Shown here one piece after another: positions 36,797 to 57,129 of a stretch of 64,000 bases of DNA. The position numbers and the translations under genes were made by a program. Under the pieces are notes generated by a model that saw nothing but the letters and a program-made list of their open reading frames with translations, was not told the origin of the DNA and ran no database searches. The stretch's first letter is position 1. Each line of letters opens with the position of its first letter. The DNA comes from Oscillospiraceae bacterium (lineage in GTDB: Bacteria > Bacillota > Clostridia > Oscillospirales > Oscillospiraceae), in assembly GCA_017429835.1 (NCBI GenBank), contig JAFROD010000048.1:1-64000 (forward strand). The letters are read 5' to 3'.

Positions 36797-37612
36797 ATGA
36801 AAACGATTACCAGACTTCTTGCGATCCTTCTGACGCTGGCGCTGATCTTCTCTCTGGCCGCCTGCGGAGATTCCAAGTCTTCGGAGGGGAGAGAAAAGCG
36901 CGGGGACGAGGATGAAAAGACGACGGAGGAGGTCGTTGCGACCGAGCCCACCGAGATGACCGAAGAGACCGAGGCGACCACCGAGGCGACGGAGGAGATC
37001 ATCGAGAACAGCGAGATCGTCGGCGCGTGGGAGTACGAAATGGATATGATGAAGGTTCTCGCGGCGGCGAAGGACATGGACGCGATGCCCGAGCAGTATG
37101 CGGGCATGATGGATTATATGGGCACGCTGTACGACGGCATGTTCATTACCGTGGTCATGGAGCTCGGAGAGGACAAAACCTGTTCAATCACCGCCAAGGA
37201 GGAGTCTTTGAAGGAAGCAGCCAAGCTGCTTGAGGAGCGTTTGCCCGCGGTGCTTCCCGAACTGCTTGCCGCGACGTACGGCATAACCCTCGAGGAGCTC
37301 GAGGCGCAGATCACGGCAGCCGGCATGACGATGGAAGACTATGTCGCAGCCGCAAGCAGTTTTCTCGATTCCGACACGCTCCTCAAGCAAATGACGCCGG
37401 AGGAGAAAAAAGGGACCTACGTCTATGAAGACGGCAAGCTGTTGCTTACCTACAAGGACGGAAGCCAAGTCACCTATACCGTGGAGCTTGACGGCGACGA
37501 GCTGACGGTGACCAACATTGAGGGCAAATCCGGAGAATATCCGGAGGCCATCCTCCCCATGGTGTTCGTCAGAGCCGGCGAAGGCGAGCACGCAGGACAG
37601 AAAGGAAGATAA
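36797..37612 (+). CDS. Lipoprotein 2, paralogue of the preceding gene
   Basis: 271 residues with AAAGGAG upstream. The signal MKTITRLLAILLTLALIFSL and lipobox LAAC match lipoprotein 1. A charged linker (EGREKRGDEDEKTTEEV) precedes the domain IVGAWEYEMDMMKVLAAAKD ... ILPMVFVRAGEGEHAGQKGR. The conserved core with lipoprotein 1 includes an ITLEELEAQITAAGMTMEDY-like segment and EDGKLLLTYKDG. It is cotranscribed with lipoprotein 3, 3 bp away. Function unknown. Confidence 0.85.
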   Translation: MKTITRLLAILLTLALIFSLAACGDSKSSEGREKRGDEDEKTTEEVVATEPTEMTEETEATTEATEEIIENSEIVGAWEYEMDMMKVLAAAKDMDAMPEQYAGMMDYMGTLYDGMFITVVMELGEDKTCSITAKEESLKEAAKLLEERLPAVLPELLAATYGITLEELEAQITAAGMTMEDYVAAASSFLDSDTLLKQMTPEEKKGTYVYEDGKLLLTYKDGSQVTYTVELDGDELTVTNIEGKSGEYPEAILPMVFVRAGEGEHAGQKGR

Positions 37613-37615
37613 AAC

Positions 37616-38851
37616 ATGAAGCGGATCACCGGACTTCTCGCGCTCCTTCTGGCGTTGGCGCTGGTTTTCTCCATGACTGCCTGCGGAAACGATGGAGCTT
37701 CTTCCGAGAAGCGCGAAAAACGCGAGCAAGACAATACGGAAACTGCCCTTGTGACCGAAGCGACGGAAACGACCGAGGCGCCCACCGAGGCGACGGAGGA
37801 GCTCGAGGTGCCGGAAGAGCTCGTCGGCGCGTGGAAGTACACCGTCGACATGGGCGCAGCAATAGCCGTGATGGAGGATTCGTTGGAGATCACCGAGGAA
37901 TCCCGGAACTTGTACGAGTTCGAGAAAAAGCTGCTTGACGGAACGGGCTTCGATGTCGTTTTTGAATTCGGAGAGGATGGCGCCTTTGCGCTTACACAGG
38001 ACAAGTCCTCTCTGCTGGAGTTTTCCACAGCGGTCAGGGCGCGCCTGCCGGAGGTAGTTCCGGAGCTGATGACCAGCGTATTCGGCGTTGCCCCCGAGGA
38101 GCTTGAGGCGCAGTTCGCAGCGACCGGCATGACCATGGACGAAATAGTTGCGGTCATGGAAGGCCTGTTCAGCCCGCGCACCCTGCTCAGGAGCATGGAT
38201 ACCGAAGCCATGCACGGCACATTTTCCTACGAGGACGGCGTGCTGATCCTTCGCGGAGAAAACGGTTCGGAATCCAGGATCAAGGCGGAGTTCACAGACA
38301 ATATGCTGACGTTTCTGGAGATCGAGGGAAAAGACGACGAGTTCGCGGAGGCGCTTCTCCCCATGACGTTCGTGAAATTTGTCCCGGAAGCGCCAGCCCC
38401 CGCACCCGCGGAAATGCTCGGCGCGTGGAAGTACACGGCGAACCTGGACGAGATATTGAAGGCGGGAGGCCTGCCCGAAGGCGAGGAAGACATCTTCCTG
38501 CTCTACGAAGGCGTTTCCGTCGTGATGGTCATAGAGCTGAACGAGGACAATACCTGCAGGTTCTCCATTGACCCGGATTCGCTGACCGCCGCCGCCGAGA
38601 AGTTCCAGGAGAACGCGAACACGTATTTCCCGGAAAAAGCGGATCAATACGACGCGGAAGAAATGCTCGGCGACATGAGATCGGAACACATGGTCACGTA
38701 TCTCTACCAGGACGGCAAGCTGATTGTTTTCGAGGAGAATTACCCGGTAGCCTCCTTGCGCGTGGAGCTCAACGGCGATGAGCTGTGGATCCTCGACTCG
38801 GATATGGGCGATACGCCGGAAAGCATGTTCCCTGTAATCTTTGTAAGATAA
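37616..38851 (+). CDS. Lipoprotein 3, paralogue with duplicated domain
   Basis: 411 residues. The signal MKRITGLLALLLALALVFSM and lipobox MTAC are followed by the Thr/Glu linker and two successive copies of the GAWKYT domain: ELVGAWKYTVDMGAAIAVME from about residue 68 and EMLGAWKYTANLDEILKAGG from about residue 262. Each copy ends with (L/V)PM(T)FVK or FPVIFVR. A within-gene duplication is evident. The ribosome binding site lies in the end of gene 2 (AAAGGAAG). Confidence 0.85.
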   Translation: MKRITGLLALLLALALVFSMTACGNDGASSEKREKREQDNTETALVTEATETTEAPTEATEELEVPEELVGAWKYTVDMGAAIAVMEDSLEITEESRNLYEFEKKLLDGTGFDVVFEFGEDGAFALTQDKSSLLEFSTAVRARLPEVVPELMTSVFGVAPEELEAQFAATGMTMDEIVAVMEGLFSPRTLLRSMDTEAMHGTFSYEDGVLILRGENGSESRIKAEFTDNMLTFLEIEGKDDEFAEALLPMTFVKFVPEAPAPAPAEMLGAWKYTANLDEILKAGGLPEGEEDIFLLYEGVSVVMVIELNEDNTCRFSIDPDSLTAAAEKFQENANTYFPEKADQYDAEEMLGDMRSEHMVTYLYQDGKLIVFEENYPVASLRVELNGDELWILDSDMGDTPESMFPVIFVR

Positions 38852-38858
38852 GGCAAAA

Positions 38859-38892
38859 AAGACGGAGCAAGCGGCAACGCTTGCTCCGTCTT
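38859..38892 (+). terminator. Terminator of the lipoprotein operon
   Basis: AAGACGGAGCAAGCG pairs exactly with CGCTTGCTCCGTCTT around a 4-nt loop. Confidence 0.75.
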
Positions 38893-39178
38893 CAGACTGT
38901 CAAAAAAGTCCGTAACCGTCAAAACCAGTTAAGCATTTTTGCAAAGCTGCTTTGATTTTGGTGCTTGTGGATAAGAGGAATACTTCAAACCTTTTGGGCT
39001 GAAAAAAGCTTGCTTCGCAAGGATTTTGACTTACTGCGCAACTCACGACCTACCGTACCTATGTACGCCGACGGTCGTGAGTTACTTGTCTTCCGAACTT
39101 TTTGACAGCCTGTTCAGCGTGTTGAAAAGGGTTTTTCGACACGCTGAGACGGAGCAGGCGGTAACGCTTGCTCCGTCT
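38893..39178. repeat. MITE-like stretch of nested inverted repeats
   Basis: The terminator at 38859-38892 has a near-copy at 39147-39178. Inside, CTGTCAAAAAAGT (about 38897) is inverted at about 39100 (ACTTTTTGACAG), ACTCACGACC pairs with GGTCGTGAGT, and CAGCGTGTTGAAAA (39115) pairs with TTTTTCGACACGCTG. No gene is visible. The right-hand hairpin also serves as terminator of the minus-strand operon. Confidence 0.6.
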
Positions 39179-40228
39179 TTATGGTTTCAGGGTTTCCCGC
39201 ATAGCGGCGGCGAACGCTTGCGTTTCGGCGGCGATGTCCGGCAGTTTCAAAGCTGTGCCGGGATCGTTCGCGGTCTTGATCAGGCAGAAGCGCGGCGGCA
39301 GGGAGAGCGCCTTGTTGAGACAGAGCGCGCCCAGAAGCTGCTGCGCCACCAGGTCGCCGCCCGAATAGCCGGACACGACGATCGCGTACAGGCTGCGCCC
39401 GTAGAGCGCGTTGCTGACGGTCAGCCCGGTCAGACGGTTGATGAACGCCGTGATGTTCGCGCCGACCGCGTCGTTGTAATTCGGGCAGAGCAGGAGGAGC
39501 GCGTCGGCGGCAAGCACCGCGGGGAGAACCTCGTCGACCATCGCGCCGCCGTAGAAGCAACTGCTCTGCGCCGCAAAGTGCGAGCAGACCTTGTATGAGC
39601 AGCCGCGGCAATCATGGATCGTGCCGTTGCGCAGGGAGATCGTTTTGATCTCGAAGTCCGGAAGCTGCCGCGTGACCAGCTCGCCCAGCGCGAGCGTGTT
39701 GGAGGTCTCATGGTCTGAAGCGTGCAGGACGAGCAGCTTCGGGCGTTCTTTTTTTGCGGTTTTTTCCGCAAACAGCCGCTCCAGCAGCGCGGAAACGGCA
39801 AAACGGTACGTCTCGTCCAGGGAGGGAAGAGAGTTCTTCCTTTGCAGGACAGCCAGGTTCTGCAGAGAGCCCGTCGCTTCCACGAGCGGTTTGCCGGGGA
39901 AGGCGCAGCCCGCCATGTTCGCCGCGAAGATCAGCCGCCGCGCGATATCCTTGGTGTCCAGCTCCGTCGCGCCGTCCACGATCACGGCGGCAGTCGCGCC
40001 GCGCAGGCCGTCGGGCGTTGCGCGCAGTTGCCGGATCAGACCGCACAGCGCGGCGTCCTCGCCCAGGGCGTCGACCGCGACGGTGAAGAGCAGGAGCCGT
40101 CCGCGCAGGTCGTGATGCGCAATATCGTCCGCGTCAATGCGCCCCGCGCCGTTCAGCACGGGAAGCGCGGCTAACAGCCGTTCCAGCCGGTCGCTCCTGC
40201 CGCAGGAGAGGATCGTCAGAGTCTGCAT
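39179..40228 (-). CDS. NAD(P)H-dependent flavodoxin-fold oxidoreductase with extra N-terminal domain
   Basis: 349 residues; ATG 40228 has GAAGGAG upstream and overlaps the end of the previous gene. The C-terminal half is an FMN-reductase-like fold: LLVLHASDHETSNTLALGEL, the Cys-rich IHDCRGCSYKVCSHF and ALLLLCPNYNDAVGANITAF. The N-terminal 150 residues (LTILSCGRSDRLERLLAALP; RGRLLLFTVAVDALGEDAAL) look like a second nucleotide-binding fold that may also be flavodoxin-like. It is the last gene of the giant-protein operon. Confidence 0.8.
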   Translation of the reverse strand: MQTLTILSCGRSDRLERLLAALPVLNGAGRIDADDIAHHDLRGRLLLFTVAVDALGEDAALCGLIRQLRATPDGLRGATAAVIVDGATELDTKDIARRLIFAANMAGCAFPGKPLVEATGSLQNLAVLQRKNSLPSLDETYRFAVSALLERLFAEKTAKKERPKLLVLHASDHETSNTLALGELVTRQLPDFEIKTISLRNGTIHDCRGCSYKVCSHFAAQSSCFYGGAMVDEVLPAVLAADALLLLCPNYNDAVGANITAFINRLTGLTVSNALYGRSLYAIVVSGYSGGDLVAQQLLGALCLNKALSLPPRFCLIKTANDPGTALKLPDIAAETQAFAAAMRETLKP

Positions 40229-41148
40229 AGCGATTCCATCTCCTTCAATTCCATCATGGCGCGCGCGATCCTGCGTTGCAGCGGCGCGGGCAACGCCGAA
40301 GTATCGTGCAGCGGCACGGCGCCGCGCTCCGTCCACCGCGCCAGACAGCCGAAATACACCCCGTCCGTCGGGATCGCGCCGTAGAACGGCGTCCCGCGCA
40401 GCAGATGCAGCAGGCTGATACAGGCGGAGGACAGCGCGGGCGCGATATAGGGTTTGAAGCCGAGCGCGCGCACCGCACGGTTGGCTTCCACGGTCGTTTT
40501 CGTCAGCGCGAGCGATAGCGCGTCGTCGTAGTCGTCAAGATCGTTTGCGATCACAAGACCCTTTCCGTGCGGCCCGAAAGCGGCAACCTTTGCCGGGTCA
40601 AGTCCCTGCAGGCGCGCGTAATACTGCGCCCGCGCCGCCATCACGCCGAGTCCGAAGCCGACGATCTGATGTTCGGACAGACCGCGCCCGTCGAAATTGC
40701 CGCTTTCGTCCGTGTTCGACTGCCAATAGACGCACCGGCAGAGCAGATCGACCGGGTCGGAGATCTGGCAGAACAGACCGGAAAAGCCGGAAGCTCGCGC
40801 CTGTTTTGCGTATCGCTTCAGCAATGCGCGGTTGCCCTCGAACTGCAGCATCCGCACGTCGCCGCCCGTGCCGACCGGCGGCACGCCACGCGACGCGGCG
40901 AAGAGGAACACGTCGCAGTCAAACAGGGCTTCCTCTTCGCGGCGAACGATACGCGGCGTCGGACGCTCCAATACCTGCCCGAGCTCCATGCAGTAGCGGT
41001 CGATCAGCGGGCCGTATGGATCGTAGACGCCGATCTCGTCGATCTCGTCGCCGAGCAGCTTCAGGGCGGTCAGCAGCGTGCCGCCCACATCGCCGAGCCC
41101 GACCAGCGTCAGCCTCAGACCCGTTTTTTTCAGCAAAGGCGCCGTCAT
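40216..41148 (-). CDS. Lactate/malate-dehydrogenase-like NAD-dependent protein
   Basis: 310 residues; ATG 41148 overlaps the stop of the giant gene (ATGA). The Rossmann motif LTLVGLGDVGGTLLTALKLL lies at the N-terminus, followed by DVFLFAASRGVPPVGTGGDV and GLFCQISDPVDLLCRCVYWQ, which parallel the LDH/MDH loop and NP(V)D motif. Some catalytic positions differ from true dehydrogenases: the usual DxxR and catalytic HG are seen only as GPHGKG. It may bind NAD and act on an unusual 2-hydroxyacid. Confidence 0.78.
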   Translation of the reverse strand: MTAPLLKKTGLRLTLVGLGDVGGTLLTALKLLGDEIDEIGVYDPYGPLIDRYCMELGQVLERPTPRIVRREEEALFDCDVFLFAASRGVPPVGTGGDVRMLQFEGNRALLKRYAKQARASGFSGLFCQISDPVDLLCRCVYWQSNTDESGNFDGRGLSEHQIVGFGLGVMAARAQYYARLQGLDPAKVAAFGPHGKGLVIANDLDDYDDALSLALTKTTVEANRAVRALGFKPYIAPALSSACISLLHLLRGTPFYGAIPTDGVYFGCLARWTERGAVPLHDTSALPAPLQRRIARAMMELKEMESLCRL

Positions 41149-44100
41149 AGCTTCGTCCTCCGCAGGCGGCGGAAGTTCACGATGTCGTCCGCCACGTAAC
41201 CGGACGGCAGCGCGCTCAGATCGTATTGCAGATATTTGCCGCGATACGGCGCGCGCGGACGGATCAGCGCCTCCGCCATGCGCCCGAGGGTGAGCTGCGT
41301 GCCGAAGCTGCGCTGGTGGCACTGCTCCAGCGCGAGCAGAATCTCATGCGCGTTGTTCAGACACGCTTCGGACAGCGCGAGAATGGACTGTTCGTCCACG
41401 CCGCGCAGGAAGTCCGGCGCGCAGTAGGGGAGGATCAGATTCTCCGTCGGCAGCAGACCGCCGACGGACTTGCCGTCCGTGACGCTGTCGCCGCCGATGA
41501 ACGGATAGAGCAGGCTCTCGGTGAACCAGTAGCGCAGATTCGGAATGAAGTATTCGCAGTCGACCTCGCGCTGCTCGAGCTGCATGAGGTCGCGGCCGCG
41601 GCCCGACAGAATGCCGACCACGATCCGCTGGATCTCAAGCTGCTCCTGCCGGAAAATGCGGTCGAGCTTTTCGATCCGGTAGCCCTTGTGCAGCAGATCG
41701 TCGACCAGAATGACCGGACGGTGGAAGGCGCGGATCGTGCGCACCTGCCCGGGCAGATCGGAATAGCCGGGGAAGGCGCGGATCCGGAAGTGATAGATGT
41801 CGTTTTCGTAAGCCTTGTCCACGTGCAGACTCTTGGTGACGACGTTCGGCACGATCTCGCCGGAGAGAATGCTCCCATAGGGCACGCACACGCTCTTGCC
41901 GAGCGTCTTCGGATCGTGCGCGTCCTGCACGCCGGCGGCATTGCGCACGCGCTCCATGACCGCCGCGTCCAAAAGCTCCGCGTCAAAGCTGAGCAGGAGC
42001 TTTCCGGGGAAGAGATCGCAGATCGTCTGCCGCAGGCGCGGCCGGGAAGCGAGCACGGCGGAGCGTACCGTTTCGTCGCTGCGGTGCGGCTCCTTGAAAC
42101 GGCGCAGGACGTCCTGCACCAGAATGACGGGCGTGCGCATATCCACCGCCAGCACGTCCGGCTGCTCCGGCAGCGCCGTGAAGCCGAGCTCCAGCAGCGT
42201 TCCGGTCAGCCATTCCTTGCCGGCCGTGGGGCAGAGCGCGTAGGTGTGATCTTCGGGCAGACTCCGCGCCAACAGCTCGGTCAGAACGCGCCTTGCGCAG
42301 TCCAAATCCGCCTCCGGCTCCAGCGTCACCGCTTCGATCAGCAGCATTCTGCCGGAGCTGTGGCGGCGCAGGTATTCCGCGCCGGGCAGAGAGCCCAGTA
42401 CGCCGTAGAGCTCGGTGCTGCGGATCGTCCTGCCGTCGGCGTGTGCAAGAATGCTGCCGTTCTCCGTGCGGCGGAGCGTCGCGGTGCAGCGGAGCTTGTC
42501 CCAGGCAAAGTCGAGGGCGACCGCCTGCCGGCGCAGCGCCTGTTTGAACTGCGGCGCGCGGAGATAGAGATTTTTCTCGTAAATATAGCTTTGTACCATG
42601 GGGTCGACCAGCATCGACACGTCCATGTTTTTGTCCACGTAGTCGCGGATACGTGTGGAGCTGACCGTTTCGTAGAACTCCGGCAGCGTGAGCATGATCC
42701 GCCTGCCGCGGATGCGCGCTTCGAGCTCCTCCCTGCGGACGGCGCTGTCGCGGAGGAAGATGATATGGTCATAATCCGCCGCGCTGCCGGGAGAGGGATC
42801 GCGATAGGCGGACGCGCCCTCGATCACGTCGCTGCCGGTCACGAGCCAGAGTGCACGGTCGGGGAAGAGTGACTTCAGCAGCGCGAGATCGGACGGATAG
42901 GCGATGTTGATCGGGATCTCATCGGGGAAGAGATAGACGTCCATGCGGTCCGCGACGCTCATGGAGGCGATCTGCCGCCGCAGGAGCTTGGGGATCGCGA
43001 GCTTGCTCCACGAGAACTCGTCGATCGCAAGATAGACCTCGAAGCCGCGCGCGAGAATCTCCTCCACCACGCGCTTATGTCCGGCGGAGAAGGGGTCGAA
43101 GGTGCCGGGGAAGAACGCTACGGGCTTCGGTTCGGGCATGCTGAAATCCGCGCCGTCGATACGACATTCCACCAGAAAACGGTAGACCCGGTTGAGCATG
43201 GCGGACTTGGTAAAGAAGGTGAAGCGACCGTCACGCGGCTCGGAGAGCAGGGTCAGCAGCTTCTTGCCGGCGCGGAAATAGTAGCCCCGCCGGAGCTCTC
43301 TCGGAAGCTTCTCGTTCGCCAGCACGTCCTCGCACAGCACGGTCAGCGCGGTGTCATGAATGGTGTCGTCATAGTGGCTCACGCCCGCGAGGAGCAGTCC
43401 GAGCAGACGGTCGGTCTGCTCACAGGAAGGCTCCGCCAGCGTTTCCAAAAGACGGCTCACCGTGGAAAGGCAGGCGCCCGCCGTCCGCGCGGAGGACTGA
43501 CGGATATGCCCCTCCAGAAATTCGAGGCATTCGTTCAGCTCCTTCGCGGGAAGCCTTGCGATCATCACGCCGAGATAGCGCGGAATATAGGCGGAGATCT
43601 CGTCCTGACCGGTCTCCAGCTCGCGCAGCAGATCGACGATGATCTCGTTCTGCTCCTCGACGGTCAGCCGATCCTGCATTTGCAGCAGCGCGCGGCCGGC
43701 GCGTTCGCGCACCGGAAGGTGCTCGCTGACGCACAGGAGGTTCGACAGGTGCATTGCGGTATGGAAGGCGTGCTCGGGGTGCTCGCTCAGATCGTCCGTC
43801 AGCGCGTCGATCTGCGTGAGCTTTACCATCCAGTGCACGGCGTTCTTGAGATTGCTGAGGTAGACCTGCGCCGCGGACATCGCAAACGACCTGCACGGCA
43901 GCTTGACAAGCCTGCGGACTCGGTTTTCAACGTAGGCTGCCGCATAGCTCTGCGTGTCGGGCAGCCGTTCGACTGTCCGGCGGAGCAGCGCGGTCTGTTC
44001 TTCGCTCAGGTGCGGCGCGAGCGTTTCCAGCCGGCGCAGGATCAGAACGGCAAGCGGCTCTTCCGCAGGCAGAAGGTCAAGCAGGCGCGTCAGGAGCCGA

Positions 44101-45785
44101 CCGATCTGGTCGGAGCTGAGAATATCGAGCGGGATATAGTACAGCGCGTCAATCAGGGCAAAGAGCGCATCTCCCTCCGCATTCGGAAGGCGGTCAAGCA
44201 GCGGGTCGATAAAGTGCGGGACTTCGTGCCGGTCGCAGTTTTTCACAAGACTTGCCACGATGATTTTCAGAGAATTGGATATGCGGAGCGCGTGCTTGGC
44301 GGCGATCTTATGATCGGGGTAGAGGCACATATCCATGTACCGCTCCCAAAGCTGCACGGACTCGGCTAAGAACGCCGCGGTCGCCGGCACGATGGCGGTA
44401 ACTGGCGCGGAGGCCGGCAGCTCCTTGCGGTATTTTGGGCCGCTGTTTGCCAGAATCTGCCCCATGATCATCGCGCTGCGGCGGCGCACGTCGCCCTGAT
44501 GATGCGTCAAAAGTTCATACAGCAGCGCGAGCGTCCGGCGTTTGTTCTGGCCGGTCATGTAGGTATTGTATTCCTCGAACACGCGCAGATACGTGCGAAT
44601 GCGGTGCAGATTCTTCTCGCCGCGCGCCTGCTCGAGCATCTGCCCGAAGGTCACGTCCTTCGTGATTATGTACATCAGGCGGATGTTGTTTTCAAACATC
44701 TGATTCGACAGCGCGCCGAGCAGCTCGTTTTCGCCGAGTAGGGCGGGATGACGCGGCGTGACCGGCAGCATTTCACTGCTGTCGGGAGCGGTGCAGACGC
44801 CGTGACTGACGAGCATTTGCTCAAAGTCCGCAAGCTTGGTATAGACGGTCTGATACCGCCGCGCCTTTTCCGGCGTCACGTCGGCGAGCTTGGAGAGGAT
44901 CATGTCGTAGGATTCCGCCAGCGTGTAGATGCGGATGACCTCGACACCGTTCTCCCGCGTGCCGCGGACGCGGAAGTCCGCGTAGATCAGCAGCAGCGAT
45001 TCCAGCGTCAGATTCTCAAATTCCAAGTCCCAGGTGGAGTGGTTCGCCGCAATGTGGGCGATCTTCGGCAGTCCCTGCCGCTCCAGCCATTGATAGGTGT
45101 AGTAATAGTGCAGATAGGGGATACGCTTCGCGTCGTCGCCGCGGCAGCCGAATTTGCCGATGTCGTGGCTGAGAGAGGACGCGCTGACGAGCGGGATATC
45201 CACGGGCAGACCCGCCTTCGCGGCCTGCCGCGCGATATGCAGCGCAAGATGGTGCACGCCGATCGTGTGCGAAGCGGGGTCAAAGGGCATGATCTCCCGC
45301 CCGAGCCGCATCAGCGCGATAAAGTGCGCTCTCTTGATCTCCTCCAGCCAGCGGCGGTATTCGCCCTCGATCAGGCTGCGCGAAAGCTCCTCCTCCGTTA
45401 CGGCAGGAACGTCGGTCAGCGGGTCGTAGGGGAAACGATCCGCTTCACGCTCCAAAAACCAGGAGAGCACCGTGGCGTAAAAATCCAGCGCCTGCCGCTG
45501 ACCGTTCGAAAGCACGCCGCGCGCCGCGTCGGGATAGAGGCGGTGCGAAAGCTCGTCATAGCATTCTTTCAGCCAACCGTTTTCCGGCTCCGGGCAGAGC
45601 TGATCCATGACCGGACGGCACATCGCAAGCACCTCGGCGCAGCTTGTCCTTGTCTGCGGAAGCTGTTTCGGCAGACGGGCAAAGAACTCCGTTTCTTTCA
45701 ATATCCGCTTCTCGGAACGCTGGGAAAGCCCGTCTTCCTGCAGCACGCCGGAAAGCAGCCGTTCCTGTAAGGATTGATAGAGCAT
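41145..45785 (-). CDS. Giant multidomain protein: HD, helical repeats, NadD-like, GNAT-like and phosphoribosyltransferase-like
   Basis: 1546 residues; start after GGAGGGGATCCTA. An HD domain lies at about 165-300 (SHTIGVHHLALHIARQAAKA; SSLSHDIGKFGC). Helical HEAT-like repeats span about 380-860. A nucleotidylyltransferase domain lies at about 885-1085 (VAFFPGTFDPFSAGHKRVVE and SSTRIRDYV, the motifs of NadD/CoaD enzymes). A GNAT-like region follows at about 1110-1200 (ALCPTAGKEWLTGTLLELGF). The C-terminal domain carries a PRPP-binding-like loop, RPVILVDDLLHKGY, near 1360. The mix suggests nucleotide or NAD-precursor chemistry plus hydrolysis. The operon continues with an NAD-type dehydrogenase and a flavin reductase. 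The physiological role is not known. Confidence 0.85.
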   Translation of the reverse strand: MLYQSLQERLLSGVLQEDGLSQRSEKRILKETEFFARLPKQLPQTRTSCAEVLAMCRPVMDQLCPEPENGWLKECYDELSHRLYPDAARGVLSNGQRQALDFYATVLSWFLEREADRFPYDPLTDVPAVTEEELSRSLIEGEYRRWLEEIKRAHFIALMRLGREIMPFDPASHTIGVHHLALHIARQAAKAGLPVDIPLVSASSLSHDIGKFGCRGDDAKRIPYLHYYYTYQWLERQGLPKIAHIAANHSTWDLEFENLTLESLLLIYADFRVRGTRENGVEVIRIYTLAESYDMILSKLADVTPEKARRYQTVYTKLADFEQMLVSHGVCTAPDSSEMLPVTPRHPALLGENELLGALSNQMFENNIRLMYIITKDVTFGQMLEQARGEKNLHRIRTYLRVFEEYNTYMTGQNKRRTLALLYELLTHHQGDVRRRSAMIMGQILANSGPKYRKELPASAPVTAIVPATAAFLAESVQLWERYMDMCLYPDHKIAAKHALRISNSLKIIVASLVKNCDRHEVPHFIDPLLDRLPNAEGDALFALIDALYYIPLDILSSDQIGRLLTRLLDLLPAEEPLAVLILRRLETLAPHLSEEQTALLRRTVERLPDTQSYAAAYVENRVRRLVKLPCRSFAMSAAQVYLSNLKNAVHWMVKLTQIDALTDDLSEHPEHAFHTAMHLSNLLCVSEHLPVRERAGRALLQMQDRLTVEEQNEIIVDLLRELETGQDEISAYIPRYLGVMIARLPAKELNECLEFLEGHIRQSSARTAGACLSTVSRLLETLAEPSCEQTDRLLGLLLAGVSHYDDTIHDTALTVLCEDVLANEKLPRELRRGYYFRAGKKLLTLLSEPRDGRFTFFTKSAMLNRVYRFLVECRIDGADFSMPEPKPVAFFPGTFDPFSAGHKRVVEEILARGFEVYLAIDEFSWSKLAIPKLLRRQIASMSVADRMDVYLFPDEIPINIAYPSDLALLKSLFPDRALWLVTGSDVIEGASAYRDPSPGSAADYDHIIFLRDSAVRREELEARIRGRRIMLTLPEFYETVSSTRIRDYVDKNMDVSMLVDPMVQSYIYEKNLYLRAPQFKQALRRQAVALDFAWDKLRCTATLRRTENGSILAHADGRTIRSTELYGVLGSLPGAEYLRRHSSGRMLLIEAVTLEPEADLDCARRVLTELLARSLPEDHTYALCPTAGKEWLTGTLLELGFTALPEQPDVLAVDMRTPVILVQDVLRRFKEPHRSDETVRSAVLASRPRLRQTICDLFPGKLLLSFDAELLDAAVMERVRNAAGVQDAHDPKTLGKSVCVPYGSILSGEIVPNVVTKSLHVDKAYENDIYHFRIRAFPGYSDLPGQVRTIRAFHRPVILVDDLLHKGYRIEKLDRIFRQEQLEIQRIVVGILSGRGRDLMQLEQREVDCEYFIPNLRYWFTESLLYPFIGGDSVTDGKSVGGLLPTENLILPYCAPDFLRGVDEQSILALSEACLNNAHEILLALEQCHQRSFGTQLTLGRMAEALIRPRAPYRGKYLQYDLSALPSGYVADDIVNFRRLRRTKL

Positions 45786-45823: not shown

Positions 45824-45852
45824 ATTATAACAAATTCTCCGGCATTACACAA
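45824..45852 (-). promoter_or_regulatory. Promoter of the giant-protein operon
   Basis: On the minus strand TTGTGT (45852-45847) and TATAAT (45829-45824) are separated by 17 bp. It overlaps the gdhA terminator hairpin, so read-through could influence initiation. Confidence 0.6.
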
Positions 45853-45865
45853 TGCCGGAGAATAA
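45837..45865 (-). terminator. Terminator of gdhA
   Basis: TCTCCGGCATT and AATGCCGGAGA pair around a short loop, 17 bp after the gdhA stop, with TTTGTT beyond. Confidence 0.65.
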
Positions 45866-45881
45866 TATTCTGTGTATTTTA

Positions 45882-47327
<1,446 letters not shown>

Positions 47328-50550: not shown

Positions 50551-51390
50551 ATGAAACGAATTGTCAGTATTCAGGATTTTTCCTGTATCGGAAAATGCTC
50601 GCAGAGCATCGCGCTGCCGGTGCTGTCGGCGATGGGCCTGGAATGCGCTGCGCTGCCGACGGTGCTGCTTTCGGCGCATACGGCGTTTGACGGCTTTGTC
50701 AGCCGCGCGCTGACGGACAGCATCGCGCCGATCACCGAGCATTGGAAGCGCCTGGGCGTCCGCTTTGACGCGATCTACACGGGTTATCTCGGCTCGGCGG
50801 CGCAGATCGCGCAGGTAGAGCGGATCATCGCGGATTTCGGCACGGACGAGAATCTGATCTTCGTCGATCCGGTCATGGCGGATCACGGCAGGCTGTACGC
50901 CGGTTTTGCGCCGGATTTTCCGGAATCCATGAAGACCCTCTGCCGTCATGCGGACGTGATCACGCCGAACGTGACGGAGGCGTGCCTGCTGACGGGGGAG
51001 ACCTACCGCGAGCGGCACGAAGAAACCTTCGTGCGCGCACTGCTGGAAAAGCTGCTTGCGCTCGGCGCGAAGACTGCCATCGTGACGGGCATCCGCACGG
51101 ACGATGCGCAGATGGGCGTGGCGGTGATGGACGAAGCGGGGAAGCTCTCTCTGCATAACACGGAGTACGTTCCGTCCGTTTTCTACGGAACGGGCGATCT
51201 CTTCGCCGCGACCTGCGCAGGCGCCTTGACGCTCGGTCTGCCTGCGGAACGAGCGATCGCGCTCGCGGCGGACTACGTCGTTCAGACGATCCGCGTGACC
51301 GCACAGGATCCCGACGCCCGCTGGTACGGGGTCAATTTTGAACAGACCCTGCCGTATCTCATGAAACGCCTCGGGGAGGAACAAAAATGA
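50551..51390 (+). CDS. pdxY: Pyridoxal/pyridoxamine kinase
   Basis: 279 residues, PfkB/ribokinase fold. It begins RIVSIQDFSCIGKCSQSIAL, has DPVMADHGRLYAGF and VITPNVTEACLLTGE, and the anion-hole/catalytic motif VFYGTGDLFAATCAGAL with the Asp base. It phosphorylates B6 vitamers in the salvage route to pyridoxal phosphate. The symbol could equally be pdxK. A TATAAT box lies at 50516-50521. Its stop overlaps the start of the YfhO-like gene, so the two are translationally coupled although functionally unrelated. Confidence 0.9.
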   Translation: MKRIVSIQDFSCIGKCSQSIALPVLSAMGLECAALPTVLLSAHTAFDGFVSRALTDSIAPITEHWKRLGVRFDAIYTGYLGSAAQIAQVERIIADFGTDENLIFVDPVMADHGRLYAGFAPDFPESMKTLCRHADVITPNVTEACLLTGETYRERHEETFVRALLEKLLALGAKTAIVTGIRTDDAQMGVAVMDEAGKLSLHNTEYVPSVFYGTGDLFAATCAGALTLGLPAERAIALAADYVVQTIRVTAQDPDARWYGVNFEQTLPYLMKRLGEEQK

Positions 51391-54158
51391 AGCCTTCCAC
51401 GTCAAAAAAGAAGAATACTCCGCAGAAACAAAGCAAGAGAGCCGCGGCAAAAAAGAAGAACGGCGCTTCGCTCCGGACAGAGGTTGATTCTCCGTTGCTT
51501 GAGCAGAGCAAGAGCCGCCTTCCGCTGCTGCTGGCGTTCCTGCTGCCGTTTGCGGCGGCGTGCATCGTCCTCTCGATCGCTGGGCTTTCGCCGTTCGGCG
51601 ATAAAACGATCCTTATTTGGGACAGTCAAAAGCAGTATTATCCGTTCTTCAAGGCGTTCCGCGAAAAGCTGCTCTCCGGCGGCTCTTTACAGTACACTTG
51701 GGACGTCGGCATGGGCACGGGCTACGCCTCGCTCTACGCCTACTATCTTGCGAGCCCGCTGAACTGGCTGTGCGTCCTCGTGCCGGCGTCGGCGTTGCCG
51801 GAGTTCTTCGCCCTGCTGACGGTCGTGAAGATCGCCTGCGCGGGACTGTTCTTTGCGATCTTCCTGCGCATCGTCTATCGCAGAAATGACGTATCTATCG
51901 CGTTCTTCGCGCTGCTGTACGCGTTCTGCTCGTGGACGGCGGGCTACTACTGGAACAACATGTGGCTGGACACCTTCGCGCTCCTGCCGCTGTTGGTCGC
52001 CGGCACGGTCTGCTTGCTTCGCGACGGCAGATTCCGCCTCTATATTATTGCGCTGGCGCTCTCGCTCTGGTGCAACTACTATCTGGCCTATTTCTGCTGC
52101 ATTTTCGTCCTGCTGACGTTCGTGATTTACTGTGTCGTCTGCTGGCAGGGCTTCAAGAGCTTCCTGCGGCGCTTCCTGCGCATCGGCGTGTCTACGCTGA
52201 TCGGCGTGGGACTGACCGCCGTGCTGCTGCTCCCGACGCTGAAAGCGATGATGAATTCCTACGCGTCCGCCGGCGGGCTGACCGGAGAATGGGGGCTGAA
52301 TCTCGCAAACGGCGGCAGCGGCATATCCGGCGTGTGGCGCGCGTCGCGGACGATCCTATCCAATCTCATGCCCGATCCGTCTGTGACCGATATTCTGCCG
52401 GCGGGTCTGCCGAATATCTACTGCGGCTTCTGCGCCGTCGTTCTGGCAATTACTTTCTTTTGCTGCGGCAAAGTCAGCCTGCGGGAAAAGCTGTGCAGCG
52501 GCGGTCTGCTGATCTTCCTGCTGATGAGCTTTATCTTCCGCAAGCTGGATTATCTCTGGCACGGCTTCCACTTCCCGAACGGTCTGCCGTACCGCTTCAG
52601 CTTCCTGTTCAGCTTCGTCACGATCGCTCTGGCGTACCGCGCCTATACGCTGATGGACAGCTTCAAAAAGTGGTATCTTGCCATCATCGTCCCGGTCGCG
52701 GGACTGCTGATTCTTAACGCCGCGGGCAGGGACTACGGCTCCGTGAAAGCCGCGATCCTCGTGCTTGCAGCGGTCGTCGCCGCGCTGTTGGTTTACAATC
52801 ATAGCAAGGCGCGGCGCGTGGCCGCCTCCGCGATCCTGTTCGCGGTGATCGCCGCCGAAACGATCTCCTGCTTTGCCTATGGGATCAAGCAGGCGGATTT
52901 CGCCTTGAAAACCGATTATCTGCGGAATGATGAGGAAATCCAAACGCTGCTTGCTGCGGCGCAAGCGCCGGACGGCTTCGGCCGCACGGAGCTGACCGTT
53001 CCGCAGACGCGCAACGACGGCGCGCTTCACAGCTATCGCGGCGCCTCAATCTTCACCTCGTCCGCCAACGCGAATTTCAACCGTTTTTCTCCCGCGCTCG
53101 GGCTGTCGTCTCTGCCGGTCTTCAACTGGTATCTCTATTGGGAGACCTCGCCGCTTTCCAATACGCTGTGCGGCATCCGATATCTGCTTGACTGCGAAGG
53201 AAGGCATCGTGACCCGGTGCACAATACCCTGATCGCAACGGAGGGAAACGTCAATCTGCTGCACAATAACTACTATATTTCCGCCGGCTTTATGACGGAG
53301 AGCGAAGCGTCCGGATTTACTCAATATATGTATTCGGACGATCCGATCCGCGATCAAAACGGCTTGTTTCAGCTTGCGACCGGCGTGCATGAGGACGTTT
53401 ACGTTCCGATACCCTGCGAGAAGATGACCGCGTGGACGGAGGGCAGTACGATCGAGCCCTACTTCAGTACGACGGACCGCTACTTCCGCTACAGCTGCGG
53501 CACGGAACGGTCCACTTTCAGCGTTTTCTTCCGCGCGGACACGGACGGCCTGTACTGCGCGACGACGCGCTTTCCGAATCTGACGACGGTTTACGTCTAT
53601 CTCAACGGACAGTTCGTCTTCGACCGCTATATCACGTCCCACGGCATGTTCAGCCTCGGCAGGCTTTCCGCAGGCGACGAGATTCAGCTCGTCTACTTTG
53701 TCGATCCCGGCTGGCAGGGCTACTTCTCGGCGGACGTCGCGCGCATGGACGATATCGCGTTCCGGCGCGGCTATGACGCGCTTGCTGACGAGCCGTGGGA
53801 GCTGACCGAGGTATCGGACACGAGGCTTTCCGGCACCGTGACCGCCTTGCGCGACGGCCTGTTCTATACTTCGATCCCGTATGAGCCGGGCTGGACAGCG
53901 ACGGTCGACGGCGAGGAAGTCGCGCTTGCGGCGACCTTTGATCCAGCCGCCGAAACGGTCAAACTGACTGATGCGGTGATCGCCTTCCCGCTCAGCGAGG
54001 GAACGCACACGGTCACGCTCCGCTATCAAACGCCCGGGCTTGTGCTCGGCGGGCTGATCTCGGCAGTATCGCTGCTCGCGTTTGCCGGTCTGCTTTATCT
54101 GCGCCGCAAGGAACACACGCTCTTTCCCGACCCGCCGGAAGTCTCCGGAACAGAATGA
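51387..54158 (+). CDS. YfhO-family membrane protein, copy 1
   Basis: 923 residues. A charged Lys-rich N-terminus precedes about thirteen transmembrane helices, with ISGLSPFGDKTILIWDSQ-like and QYYPFFKAFREKLLSGGSLQ motifs in the first loop. A large outer C-terminal part (EPGWTATVDGEEV, LRYQTPGL) and a last helix follow. YfhO proteins are GT-C-fold enzymes or carriers; B. subtilis YfhO is implicated in glycosylation of lipoteichoic acid. The stop is 64 bp before the paralogue. Confidence 0.9.
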   Translation: MKPSTSKKKNTPQKQSKRAAAKKKNGASLRTEVDSPLLEQSKSRLPLLLAFLLPFAAACIVLSIAGLSPFGDKTILIWDSQKQYYPFFKAFREKLLSGGSLQYTWDVGMGTGYASLYAYYLASPLNWLCVLVPASALPEFFALLTVVKIACAGLFFAIFLRIVYRRNDVSIAFFALLYAFCSWTAGYYWNNMWLDTFALLPLLVAGTVCLLRDGRFRLYIIALALSLWCNYYLAYFCCIFVLLTFVIYCVVCWQGFKSFLRRFLRIGVSTLIGVGLTAVLLLPTLKAMMNSYASAGGLTGEWGLNLANGGSGISGVWRASRTILSNLMPDPSVTDILPAGLPNIYCGFCAVVLAITFFCCGKVSLREKLCSGGLLIFLLMSFIFRKLDYLWHGFHFPNGLPYRFSFLFSFVTIALAYRAYTLMDSFKKWYLAIIVPVAGLLILNAAGRDYGSVKAAILVLAAVVAALLVYNHSKARRVAASAILFAVIAAETISCFAYGIKQADFALKTDYLRNDEEIQTLLAAAQAPDGFGRTELTVPQTRNDGALHSYRGASIFTSSANANFNRFSPALGLSSLPVFNWYLYWETSPLSNTLCGIRYLLDCEGRHRDPVHNTLIATEGNVNLLHNNYYISAGFMTESEASGFTQYMYSDDPIRDQNGLFQLATGVHEDVYVPIPCEKMTAWTEGSTIEPYFSTTDRYFRYSCGTERSTFSVFFRADTDGLYCATTRFPNLTTVYVYLNGQFVFDRYITSHGMFSLGRLSAGDEIQLVYFVDPGWQGYFSADVARMDDIAFRRGYDALADEPWELTEVSDTRLSGTVTALRDGLFYTSIPYEPGWTATVDGEEVALAATFDPAAETVKLTDAVIAFPLSEGTHTVTLRYQTPGLVLGGLISAVSLLAFAGLLYLRRKEHTLFPDPPEVSGTE

Positions 54159-54222: not shown

Positions 54223-57129
54223 TTGAAATTTTCCATGTTTCAAAAGAAAGGCAAAACCAAGCCCGATCAGAAGAAGAAACCAAAAGAGGCGGCCTCCCCG
54301 CTGAAAAAGAAGAAGCGCGTGGAACGACTGCCGCTCTTGCTGGCATTTGCTGCGCCGTTTTTGATCGCGTGCGTCGTCTTTGCCGTCAGCGGCGTGTATC
54401 CGTTCGGCGACAACATGATCCTGGCGCATGACCAGTGGCATCAGTATTTTCCGTTCTTCAAGGCGTTCCGCGAAAAGCTGCTGTCGGGCGGCTCTCTGCA
54501 GTATACCTGGAACGTCGGCATGGGCACGGGCTACGCGTCCCTCTTTGCTTACTATCTGGCAAGCCCTCTGAACTGGCTGTGCGTGCTGGTGCCGTCCTCC
54601 GTGCTGATGGAGTTCTTCACCCTCCTGACGATCCTGAAGATTTCCTGCGCGGGTCTGTTCATGGCAATGTTCCTGCGCATCGTCTACCGCAAAAACGACC
54701 TTTCCATCGCGTTCTTCGGACTGATGTACGCGTTCTGCTCCTGGGTCTGCGGCTACTACTGGAACAATATCTGGCTGGACACCTTCGCTTTGCTTCCGCT
54801 GCTGGTCGGGGGGACGGTCTGCCTCCTGCGCGACGGGAAATTCCGGCTCTATACGATCACGCTGGCGCTCTCGCTCTGGTGCAACTACTATATCGCGTAC
54901 TTCTGCTGTATTTTCGTCCTGCTGATCTTCATCGTCTACTGCATCGTCTGCTGGCAGGGCTGCAAGAACTTTCTGCGCCGCTTCCTGCAGATCGGCGTGT
55001 GCACGCTGATCGGCGTCGGACTTGCGGCAGCCCTCCTGATCCCGACGCTCAAAGCGATGGGGATCACCAATTCCGCCAAGAGCAAGGACGTACACCTTCT
55101 GGGACTGAACATCGCAAAGGACGTCAGCGCCGTCGTTCCGGAGGGGAGGAGCACGTTCGACTACATTCTGAAGGATACGATCCCCGGCATTTGGCGAGCG
55201 GCGAAGCAGATCTTCACCAATCTGATGCCGATCCCCGACGTCACAAAGATGGAGGGCCTGCCGAACGTCTACTGCGGCTTCTCCGCCCTCATTCTGGCGA
55301 TCTATTTCTGCTGCTGCGGAAAGATCCGCCTGCGTGAAAAGATTTGCAGCGTGCTGTTGCTGCTGTTCCTGTTCCTGAGCTTTATTTCCCGCTATCTGGA
55401 CTATATCTGGCACGGCTTCCATTTCCCGAATATGCTGCCGTACCGGTTCAGCTTCCTGTTCAGCTTCGTCACGATCTGCATGGCGTTCCGCGCCTTTACG
55501 CTGATGGACAGCTTCAAAAAGTGGTATCTGGCGATCATCGTGCCGATCGCGGGGCTGCTGATCTGGAACGCCTGGAGCGCGGAGAATTTCCCGAAGCGGT
55601 CTCTGGCGGCGGGCATTGCCGTCCTGGTCGGCATGATCGTGTTCTTCCTGCTCTACGGCAGAAAAAAGTGGCGCCGCGTCGTGGCGCTGTGTCTGCTGGC
55701 GGCGATCATCTCCGCAGAGATGATCTTCTGCTTCAGCTTCGGCGTCGATAAGGTCTCGTTCACCTCGCGCAGCAGCTATCCGAAGGACGGCGCGGCGGTG
55801 CAGCGTCTGCTTGAAAAGGCGGAGGAGCTGGAGAAGGGAAAGACGGAATTCTGGCGCACGGAAGCGACCAATACCAATACGCTCAACGACGGTGCGCTCA
55901 ACAACTACAACGGCGTGACGATCTTCACCTCGTCCGCCAACGTCAATTTCAACCGCTTCTCCCGGTCGCTCGGCATGTCGTCCTGGCCGAGCAGCAACCG
56001 TTTCCTCTACTATGAGTCCTCGCCGTTCATCAACGCGATGTGCGGCATCAAGTACCTGCTCGACCGCGACGGTCAGTACCGCGACACGCAGTACAATACG
56101 CTGATCGCGACGGAGGGCGGCACGAATCTCCTGCGTAACGACTACTTCATCTCCCTCGGCTTTATGACGAATACCGAGTTGCAGGACTTCGTCGCGGAGA
56201 AGGATAAGTACAATCCGATCTGGGAACAGAACGAGATGTTCGCCCTTGCGACAGGCGTTCAGGAGCCGCTGTACGTTCCCGTGCAGTATTCGGAGCTGCG
56301 CCATTCGGACGAAAACGTCACCCTCGAGGGGGGCGGCACGTCCGGCACGCAGTATTCTTTCAACTGCACAAAAGCTGCGGGACGCTCCAGCCTGAGCGTG
56401 GTCTACAAGGCGGACACGGACGGTCTTTACTGCGCGACGACGAATTTCAACAACGTCAAGGCGGTGTCCGTGTATCACAACGGAAACTACCTCTTTGACC
56501 GCAACATCAAAACGCGCAGTATGTTCTCCCTCGGCTGGCTGGCGGCGGGTGACGAAGTCACGCTGGTCTATTTCGTGGACGAGGGTGAATCGGGCACGTT
56601 CTCGGCGGACGTCGAGAAGATGGACGATTACGCCTTCCGCCGCGGCTATGAGGAGCTTGCAGACGAGGCGTGGAAGCTGAACGAGGTGAAGGACACCAAG
56701 CTGTCCGGCTTCGTTTCGGCAAAGCGCGATGGGCTGTTCTACACCTCGATCCCCTATGAGCCGGGCTGGACGGCAGAGGTGGACGGCAAAGAGGTGGAGC
56801 TCGCGGCGACCTTCGATCCCTCCGAACACGCCGTCAAGCTGGCGGACGCGGTGATCGCCTTCCCGCTCACCAAGGGCATGCACCAGATCACCCTGCGCTA
56901 TTCCGCGCCGGGTCTGACCCTCGGCATCGTGATCTCCGCTGCGGCGCTGCTTGCGCTCGGCGCGCTGCTCTACCTGCGCCGGAAGGAATATACCCTTTTC
57001 CCCGACCCGCCGAAGGAGGAACCCGTATCTGCGGAGGACGCTCTGCTGGAGCAGCAGGAGCAGATTGACAGCGGGAAGATCGACGAAGAAACGTATCAAA
57101 ACCGGCGCGCGGAGATCATTCGGGAATAA
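54223..57129 (+). CDS. YfhO-family membrane protein, copy 2
   Basis: 968 residues from TTG 54223, which follows GAGGAGG closely. It is highly similar to copy 1 over its whole length (YFPFFKAFREKLLSGGSLQY; FLRIVYRKNDLSIAFFGLMY; YEPGWTAEVDGKEVELAATF) with a slightly longer outer domain and a charged C-terminal tail (EQQEQIDSGKIDEETYQNRR). The tandem duplication suggests two acceptor or donor specificities in cell-wall polymer glycosylation. That assignment is by family only. Confidence 0.9.
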   Translation: MKFSMFQKKGKTKPDQKKKPKEAASPLKKKKRVERLPLLLAFAAPFLIACVVFAVSGVYPFGDNMILAHDQWHQYFPFFKAFREKLLSGGSLQYTWNVGMGTGYASLFAYYLASPLNWLCVLVPSSVLMEFFTLLTILKISCAGLFMAMFLRIVYRKNDLSIAFFGLMYAFCSWVCGYYWNNIWLDTFALLPLLVGGTVCLLRDGKFRLYTITLALSLWCNYYIAYFCCIFVLLIFIVYCIVCWQGCKNFLRRFLQIGVCTLIGVGLAAALLIPTLKAMGITNSAKSKDVHLLGLNIAKDVSAVVPEGRSTFDYILKDTIPGIWRAAKQIFTNLMPIPDVTKMEGLPNVYCGFSALILAIYFCCCGKIRLREKICSVLLLLFLFLSFISRYLDYIWHGFHFPNMLPYRFSFLFSFVTICMAFRAFTLMDSFKKWYLAIIVPIAGLLIWNAWSAENFPKRSLAAGIAVLVGMIVFFLLYGRKKWRRVVALCLLAAIISAEMIFCFSFGVDKVSFTSRSSYPKDGAAVQRLLEKAEELEKGKTEFWRTEATNTNTLNDGALNNYNGVTIFTSSANVNFNRFSRSLGMSSWPSSNRFLYYESSPFINAMCGIKYLLDRDGQYRDTQYNTLIATEGGTNLLRNDYFISLGFMTNTELQDFVAEKDKYNPIWEQNEMFALATGVQEPLYVPVQYSELRHSDENVTLEGGGTSGTQYSFNCTKAAGRSSLSVVYKADTDGLYCATTNFNNVKAVSVYHNGNYLFDRNIKTRSMFSLGWLAAGDEVTLVYFVDEGESGTFSADVEKMDDYAFRRGYEELADEAWKLNEVKDTKLSGFVSAKRDGLFYTSIPYEPGWTAEVDGKEVELAATFDPSEHAVKLADAVIAFPLTKGMHQITLRYSAPGLTLGIVISAAALLALGALLYLRRKEYTLFPDPPKEEPVSAEDALLEQQEQIDSGKIDEETYQNRRAEIIRE

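Follow-up and report, generated by a model that had tools for sequence, protein, structure and literature searches.

Positions 39,179 to 45,785 of a 64,000-nucleotide stretch from an Oscillospiraceae bacterium (assembly GCA_017429835.1, contig JAFROD010000048.1, positions 1 to 64,000; hereafter the window) encode a 1546-residue multidomain protein (the giant protein), a protein of the lactate/malate dehydrogenase (LDH/MDH) type (gene 2) and a flavodoxin-fold protein (gene 3). The three genes are very probably one co-inherited functional unit, and the giant protein combines a NadD-type nucleotidyltransferase fold, a HEAT-like solenoid and an HD domain with a complete ligand motif. We propose tentatively, and with less than even confidence, that in anaerobic Clostridia the three proteins form a complex or pathway for making and breaking down a nucleotide conjugate outside housekeeping metabolism, most likely an NAD-like dinucleotide or a nucleotidylated metabolite. 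The genes and the parts of the giant protein are as follows (PRTase, phosphoribosyltransferase; pLDDT, predicted local distance difference test).

41145..45785, (-) strand: giant protein gene, 1546 aa (open reading frame (ORF) and translation)
44751..45398, (-) strand: HD domain region, residues 130-345 (Pfam HD in 29 of 35 relatives, and residue counts)
43146..44750, (-) strand: HEAT-like helical solenoid, residues 346-880 (model pLDDT 89, and fold matches)
42546..43130, (-) strand: NadD/NMNAT-fold domain, residues 886-1080 (Pfam, fold, motifs and hhalign)
42021..42533, (-) strand: alpha/beta domain, residues 1085-1255
41346..42020, (-) strand: PRTase-like domain, residues 1256-1480 (weak profile matches; motif VILVDDLLHKGYR at 41676-41714)
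40216..41148, (-) strand: LDH/MDH-superfamily gene (gene 2), 310 aa
39179..40228, (-) strand: FMN_red flavodoxin-fold gene (gene 3), 349 aa

From the N to the C terminus, the giant protein thus runs through a helical region, the HD domain, the HEAT-like solenoid, the NadD-like domain, a variable alpha/beta insert, the PRTase-like domain and terminal helices. Inspection of the sequence revealed a Shine-Dalgarno-like GGAGGGG directly 5' of its ATG, graded a good ribosome-binding site. The ATG of gene 2 at 41148 overlaps the giant protein's stop codon by 4 bp (ATGA), and the start of gene 3 at 40228 overlaps the end of gene 2 (40216) by 13 bp. A preliminary description of this locus, made from the sequence alone, had given these coordinates, the 1546-residue ORF and both overlaps correctly.

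Conservation and co-inheritance of the three genes

Because dozens of genomes keep the entire 1546-residue frame, with identities of 31-92%, the ORF is far beyond what chance would produce. The giant protein was found in 64 of 400 sampled genomes of its own GTDB family, mostly at full length and almost never with internal stops, and in 8 of 398 genomes sampled from the phylum as a whole. When a single genome was scanned for each species, at least 552 stretches encoding relatives were detected; the best 80 of these formed our locus set, and gene-neighbour counts cover 81 loci. The best 80 include loci from Anaerovorax odorimutans, Sedimentibacter acidaminivorans, Anaerotignum, Oscillibacter and Clostridium sp. 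MD294, and the copy in Acetoanaerobium noterae is 31-33% identical. The A. noterae replicon that carries the module (NZ_CP154629.1, 2.6 Mb) is filed as a plasmid, although its size suggests a chromosome. Also among the best 80 is a locus in a metagenome-assembled genome labelled Spirochaetes (locus L105), where gene 3 lies on the other strand, reflecting either horizontal transfer or a binning error.

The gene-neighbour counts placed the LDH-like gene in 69 of the 81 loci and the flavoprotein gene in 67, nearly always directly downstream and in the same order, and several of the loci that lack one partner are contig ends. No fourth neighbour gene conserved across lineages was found in the 81 loci. 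Further, five of the six genomes without the LDH-like gene at the locus hold exactly one copy elsewhere, and each of eight other giant-positive genomes tested has one copy (13 of 14 positives in total), compared with none of the four giant-negative genomes tested. The pairwise distances of the three proteins are correlated as well (r = 0.82-0.89, 66 loci). The conserved order, the co-presence of the LDH-like gene and the correlated distances therefore indicate that the trio is very probably one functional unit, as the preliminary description had supposed in calling it a coupled three-gene operon. That description knew of no pathway with such a set; neither the available libraries nor the open-access literature yielded a description of the giant protein's family, which as far as these libraries show is undescribed.

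Within its own genus the distribution is patchy: 8 to 9 of 16 other genomes, some of them incomplete, carry the giant protein. Such patchiness would suit an anti-phage or conflict system, and multidomain nucleotide enzymes are known in defence. However, a PADLOC search returned no match and the nameable neighbours are mostly metabolic genes rather than defence islands, so that we regard a defence role as highly improbable.

Domains of the giant protein and its partners

Conservation is concentrated in three parts of the giant protein, the HD (54%), NadD-like (60%) and PRTase-like (54%) domains, compared with 27-41% in the N terminus, the solenoid and the insert. The assignment of residues 886-1080 to the NadD fold rests on several results. 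Pfam CTP_transf_like matches the giant protein above its cut-off; the closest fold match of the domain is the NadD structure 4rpi (VIA Z 19.5, 2.4 Å over 182 residues, 19% identity), and CoaD fits less well than NadD/NMNAT structures do. An hhalign comparison with a canonical NadD of the same genus and order gave 96.7% (E 3.7e-10). The nucleotidyltransferase motifs PGTFDPF(S/T)xGH and SST(R/Q)IR are invariant or conservatively replaced in the 80 sequences, on which the residue counts for the giant protein are based; at the first signature position the family has S/T, compared with the signature G-T-F-D-P-x-(H/T)-x-G-H. The domain is nevertheless no ordinary NadD, since the giant protein scores 35 bits with the NCBIfam NadD model TIGR00482, far below its cut-off of 112. 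Because the positions of the canonical PPHK and Trp read FSWSK (within DEFSWSK) and ASAY, both invariant in the giant family, it is probably a NadD-fold enzyme with an acceptor other than that of NadD.

Pfam HD scored 21.8 bits in the whole giant protein, against a cut-off of 22, and 25.1 bits for the excised domain. In the alignment, the ligands H173, H207, D208, H226, H249 and D270 are invariant (80/80). A six-ligand H...HD...H...H...D motif is diagnostic for dinuclear HD sites (PMC8177086, a review), and by this motif the giant protein's HD domain is of the dinuclear type. Apart from chance matches, a search of PDB sequences with the HD profile gave a single weak match of HD type, to an oxetanocin-like protein (E 0.3). 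The giant protein was modelled with AlphaFold in two parts, residues 40-890 (mean pLDDT 89.0) and 880-1546 (mean pLDDT 90.5). The top fold matches of the solenoid are HEAT, karyopherin and PP2A-A helical-repeat proteins, with Z scores of 11-14, which are moderate for helical repeats; in fold searches with both multidomain models, NadD and HEAT matches filled the lists. The nucleotidylyltransferase, HD hydrolase domain and long helical array named in the preliminary description are thus borne out by the fold and intact motifs, by the Pfam match with six invariant ligands, and by the HEAT-like predicted model, respectively; missing catalytic residues or a known structural family, which would have refuted that description, were accordingly not found for the NadD-like domain.

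The PRTase-like part is matched weakly by Pfam Pribosyltran in 9 of 52 relatives and by the APRT and HPT models in 20 and 15 of 35 relatives (best E 5.7e-4). It aligned best with PRTases in hhalign (20%), over the strand VILVDD and the residues downstream, and a PDB sequence search with its profile returned no matches. The acidic pair of the phosphoribosyl pyrophosphate (PRPP) loop is kept in 79 and 78 of the 80 sequences, and H1366 and R1370 in 79 each. The PRPP-loop domain of the preliminary description accordingly stands as PRTase-like, by weak but consistent profile matches and the acidic pair, but its loop is altered. Because the loop is without the usual Thr/Gly residues, PRTase catalysis is uncertain; binding of a phosphoribosyl compound is plausible. 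The label GNAT-like, attached earlier to residues 1085-1255, found no support in the sequence tests. Acetyltransf families matched this segment in 1 of 35 relatives (E 0.09) and hhalign gave 1.1%, with the fold of the isolated domain not searched. Its predicted strand order differs from what we take to be the GNAT order, and it is the least conserved part of the C-terminal half (33%).

Both partner proteins come from redox superfamilies, in agreement with their earlier naming as an NAD-type dehydrogenase and a flavodoxin-fold reductase; their residue numbers below run two ahead of an ATG-based count. The gene 2 protein matches Ldh_1_N below the Pfam threshold and falls below all curated cut-offs. 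It shares with the LDH/MDH superfamily the Rossmann motif, the mobile-loop Arg, a second, substrate Arg and the catalytic His (R101, R175 and H196, the mapping onto LDH residues being an alignment reading), and by these features it is a member of that superfamily. The His is kept in 69 of 70 sequences. Unlike LDH/MDH enzymes, the protein has, by the same reading, Met172 at the position of the catalytic Asp (70/70), and most relatives in other genera carry an extra N-terminal part of ~90 aa that is absent from the window's genus. The gene 3 protein belongs to Pfam FMN_red (63 bits) and has an additional N-terminal domain of ~160 aa. It shares with iron-sulfur flavoproteins (Isf) and NADPH-dependent FMN reductases this family membership and four clustered Cys, which are invariant (C-x2-C-x4-C-x8-C, 68/68), so that it is possibly an iron-sulfur flavoprotein; the spacing differs from what is presumably that of Isf.

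The large HEAT-like solenoid, the altered PRPP loop and the Met in place of the Asp of the LDH catalytic pair could be taken to mean that the giant protein is a catalytically inert scaffold or sensor that detects PRPP, NAD(H) or ATP through its nucleotide-binding domains and controls the two redox proteins. The six HD ligands and both nucleotidyltransferase motifs, invariant or conservatively replaced throughout, argue against this and make it quite unlikely; the retention of these catalytic-type residues counts instead for a system that makes and breaks a nucleotide conjugate.

Relation to known nucleotide systems

The same genome encodes, apart from the module, PncB as well as a NadD-YqeK fusion of about 400 aa (one ORF, contig C18, 84586-85704), a fusion present in this genus; the two provide the nicotinate-to-nicotinate adenine dinucleotide (NaAD) route. 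In this genome, the YqeK model TIGR00488 matched only this separate ORF. We therefore ruled out the giant protein as the housekeeping enzyme of NAD synthesis. NadC is uninformative, because almost none of the genomes tested has it, whether or not they carry the module.

The NadD-YqeK fusions are the closest precedent. They are reported for most mycoplasmas, and in Mycoplasma JCVI-Syn3A the YqeK part proofreads NaAD analogues by hydrolysing what the NadD domain makes in error (PMC9426524). Like them, the giant protein carries a NadD-fold nucleotidyltransferase and an HD domain with H...HD...H...H...D ligands in one polypeptide, an analogy that suggests a make-and-edit logic. Unlike them, it has its HD domain at the N terminus, with a long solenoid between this and the NadD-like domain; it adds PRTase-like and alpha/beta insert domains and two redox partner genes; and its substrate-pocket residues differ, its scores lie far under NadD model cut-offs and it has no reported match to the YqeK model. 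This precedent, the closeness of the NadD fold and the descent of both partners from nucleotide-dependent redox superfamilies would also fit an accessory complex for salvage, proofreading or repair of ordinary or damaged pyridine nucleotides (NAD(P)). We consider such a role unlikely, because genomes of the same genus carry PncB and NadD-YqeK both with and without the module and because the invariant DEFSWSK and the ASAY make a pocket unlike that of NadD.

A second precedent is GlnD, with which the giant protein has in common the combination of nucleotidyltransferase and HD domain and, in a subset of loci, nitrogen-assimilation neighbours. In the window, a glutamate dehydrogenase (GDH) gene lies just upstream of the module, and in 6 of the 81 loci one lies within about 1 kb of it. 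Asparagine synthetase (AsnB) lies within 10 kb in 14 loci and type III glutamine synthetase (GSIII) in 9; at least one of the three accompanies the module in 20 loci, in several arrangements, orientations and lineages, these being raw counts without a genome-wide background. Because the counts have no background rate and the AsnB, GDH and GSIII genes also cluster with one another, we treat the nitrogen link as a lead. It would fit a nitrogen switch in which the NadD-like domain nucleotidylylates a protein, which might be one of the partners or an enzyme of nitrogen assimilation, and the HD domain takes the nucleotide off again. Against this, such neighbours are missing from most loci, AsnB and GSIII occur clustered with each other, and in the window GDH and the module have a terminator-like hairpin between them. 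Further, GlnD has a nucleotidyltransferase of Pol-beta fold and ACT domains, neither of which Pfam found in the giant protein; the nucleotidyltransferase of the latter has the NadD fold, and to our knowledge this fold serves small-molecule nucleotidyl transfer, not protein modification. Overall, a GlnD-like switch appears doubtful. Because tests for defining features of NadD, YqeK, LDH and GlnD showed some to be absent in each case, we assign the trio to none of these and place it, as a variant of its own, with the nucleotidyltransferase-plus-HD systems.

We thus return to a complex or pathway that builds and breaks a nucleotide conjugate. Observed are the three genes and their conservation across genomes, the NadD fold, the HEAT-like fold of the solenoid and the ligand motif of the HD domain; around these we infer the following steps. 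The PRTase-like domain would bind PRPP or another phosphoribosyl compound and supply or recognise a mononucleotide, to which the NadD-like domain would transfer a nucleotidyl group. The HD domain may hydrolyse this product or erroneous ones, in the manner of the YqeK part of the NadD-YqeK fusions, while the solenoid would hold the active sites and the partner proteins together. The LDH-like protein and the four-Cys flavoprotein may then use the product, or oxidise or reduce its organic part. In a more specific form, which we consider distinctly improbable, the product would be a private NAD-like dinucleotide, assembled by the PRTase-like and NadD-like domains, edited or recycled by the HD domain and used by the two partners as a redox carrier apart from NAD(P). 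The hint in the preliminary description at one complex for making, transferring and degrading a nucleotide cofactor or nucleotide-modified product is thus partly upheld, by the nucleotidyltransferase and HD domains with their catalytic-type residues, but a single shared cofactor stays conjectural.

Several points weigh against a nucleotide conjugate. In HD phosphatases, an Arg lies three residues ahead of the first ligand His (PMC8177086); the giant protein's HD domain is without it, position 170 being P or T in most of the 80 sequences, and its match to YqeK is weak (hhalign 7.5%), though the best of four templates. The PRPP loop is non-canonical, reading LLHKGYR (HKGYR) compared with the usual Thr/Gly-rich TTGGT or T-x-G-x-T type. 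No product or activity is on record for the module, and recurrent nitrogen-assimilation neighbours are not predicted by such chemistry.

Surroundings and significance of the module

Upstream of the module, the window contains the following features.

45834..45863, (-) strand: terminator-like hairpin with a 13-pair stem, between the glutamate dehydrogenase gene and the module; similar hairpins are also expected in shuffled sequences
45882..47261, (-) strand: glutamate dehydrogenase gene, context rather than a core part

An Rfam search of the module region returned no matches. Downstream, two near-identical hairpins (GACGGAGCA...TGCTCCGTC stems) at 38858-38893 and 39146-39179 flank a stretch of DNA. 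Two adjacent predicted lipoproteins at 36797-37612 and 37616-38851 have in common repeated segments with GAWKYT/GAWEYE-like starts and gave no Pfam matches. Tandem YfhO membrane proteins, each of more than 900 aa, are encoded at 51387-54158 and 54223-57129.

Overall, the trio is a conserved, co-inherited system without described function in hundreds of anaerobic Clostridia of gut and sediment, and its parts point to nucleotide-cofactor chemistry, in bacteria common in the gut, that lies beyond the known route to NAD. If it does make a new cofactor, or if it is a new nucleotide-based switch of nitrogen metabolism, it would represent an additional pathway or regulatory layer in a major group of gut bacteria.

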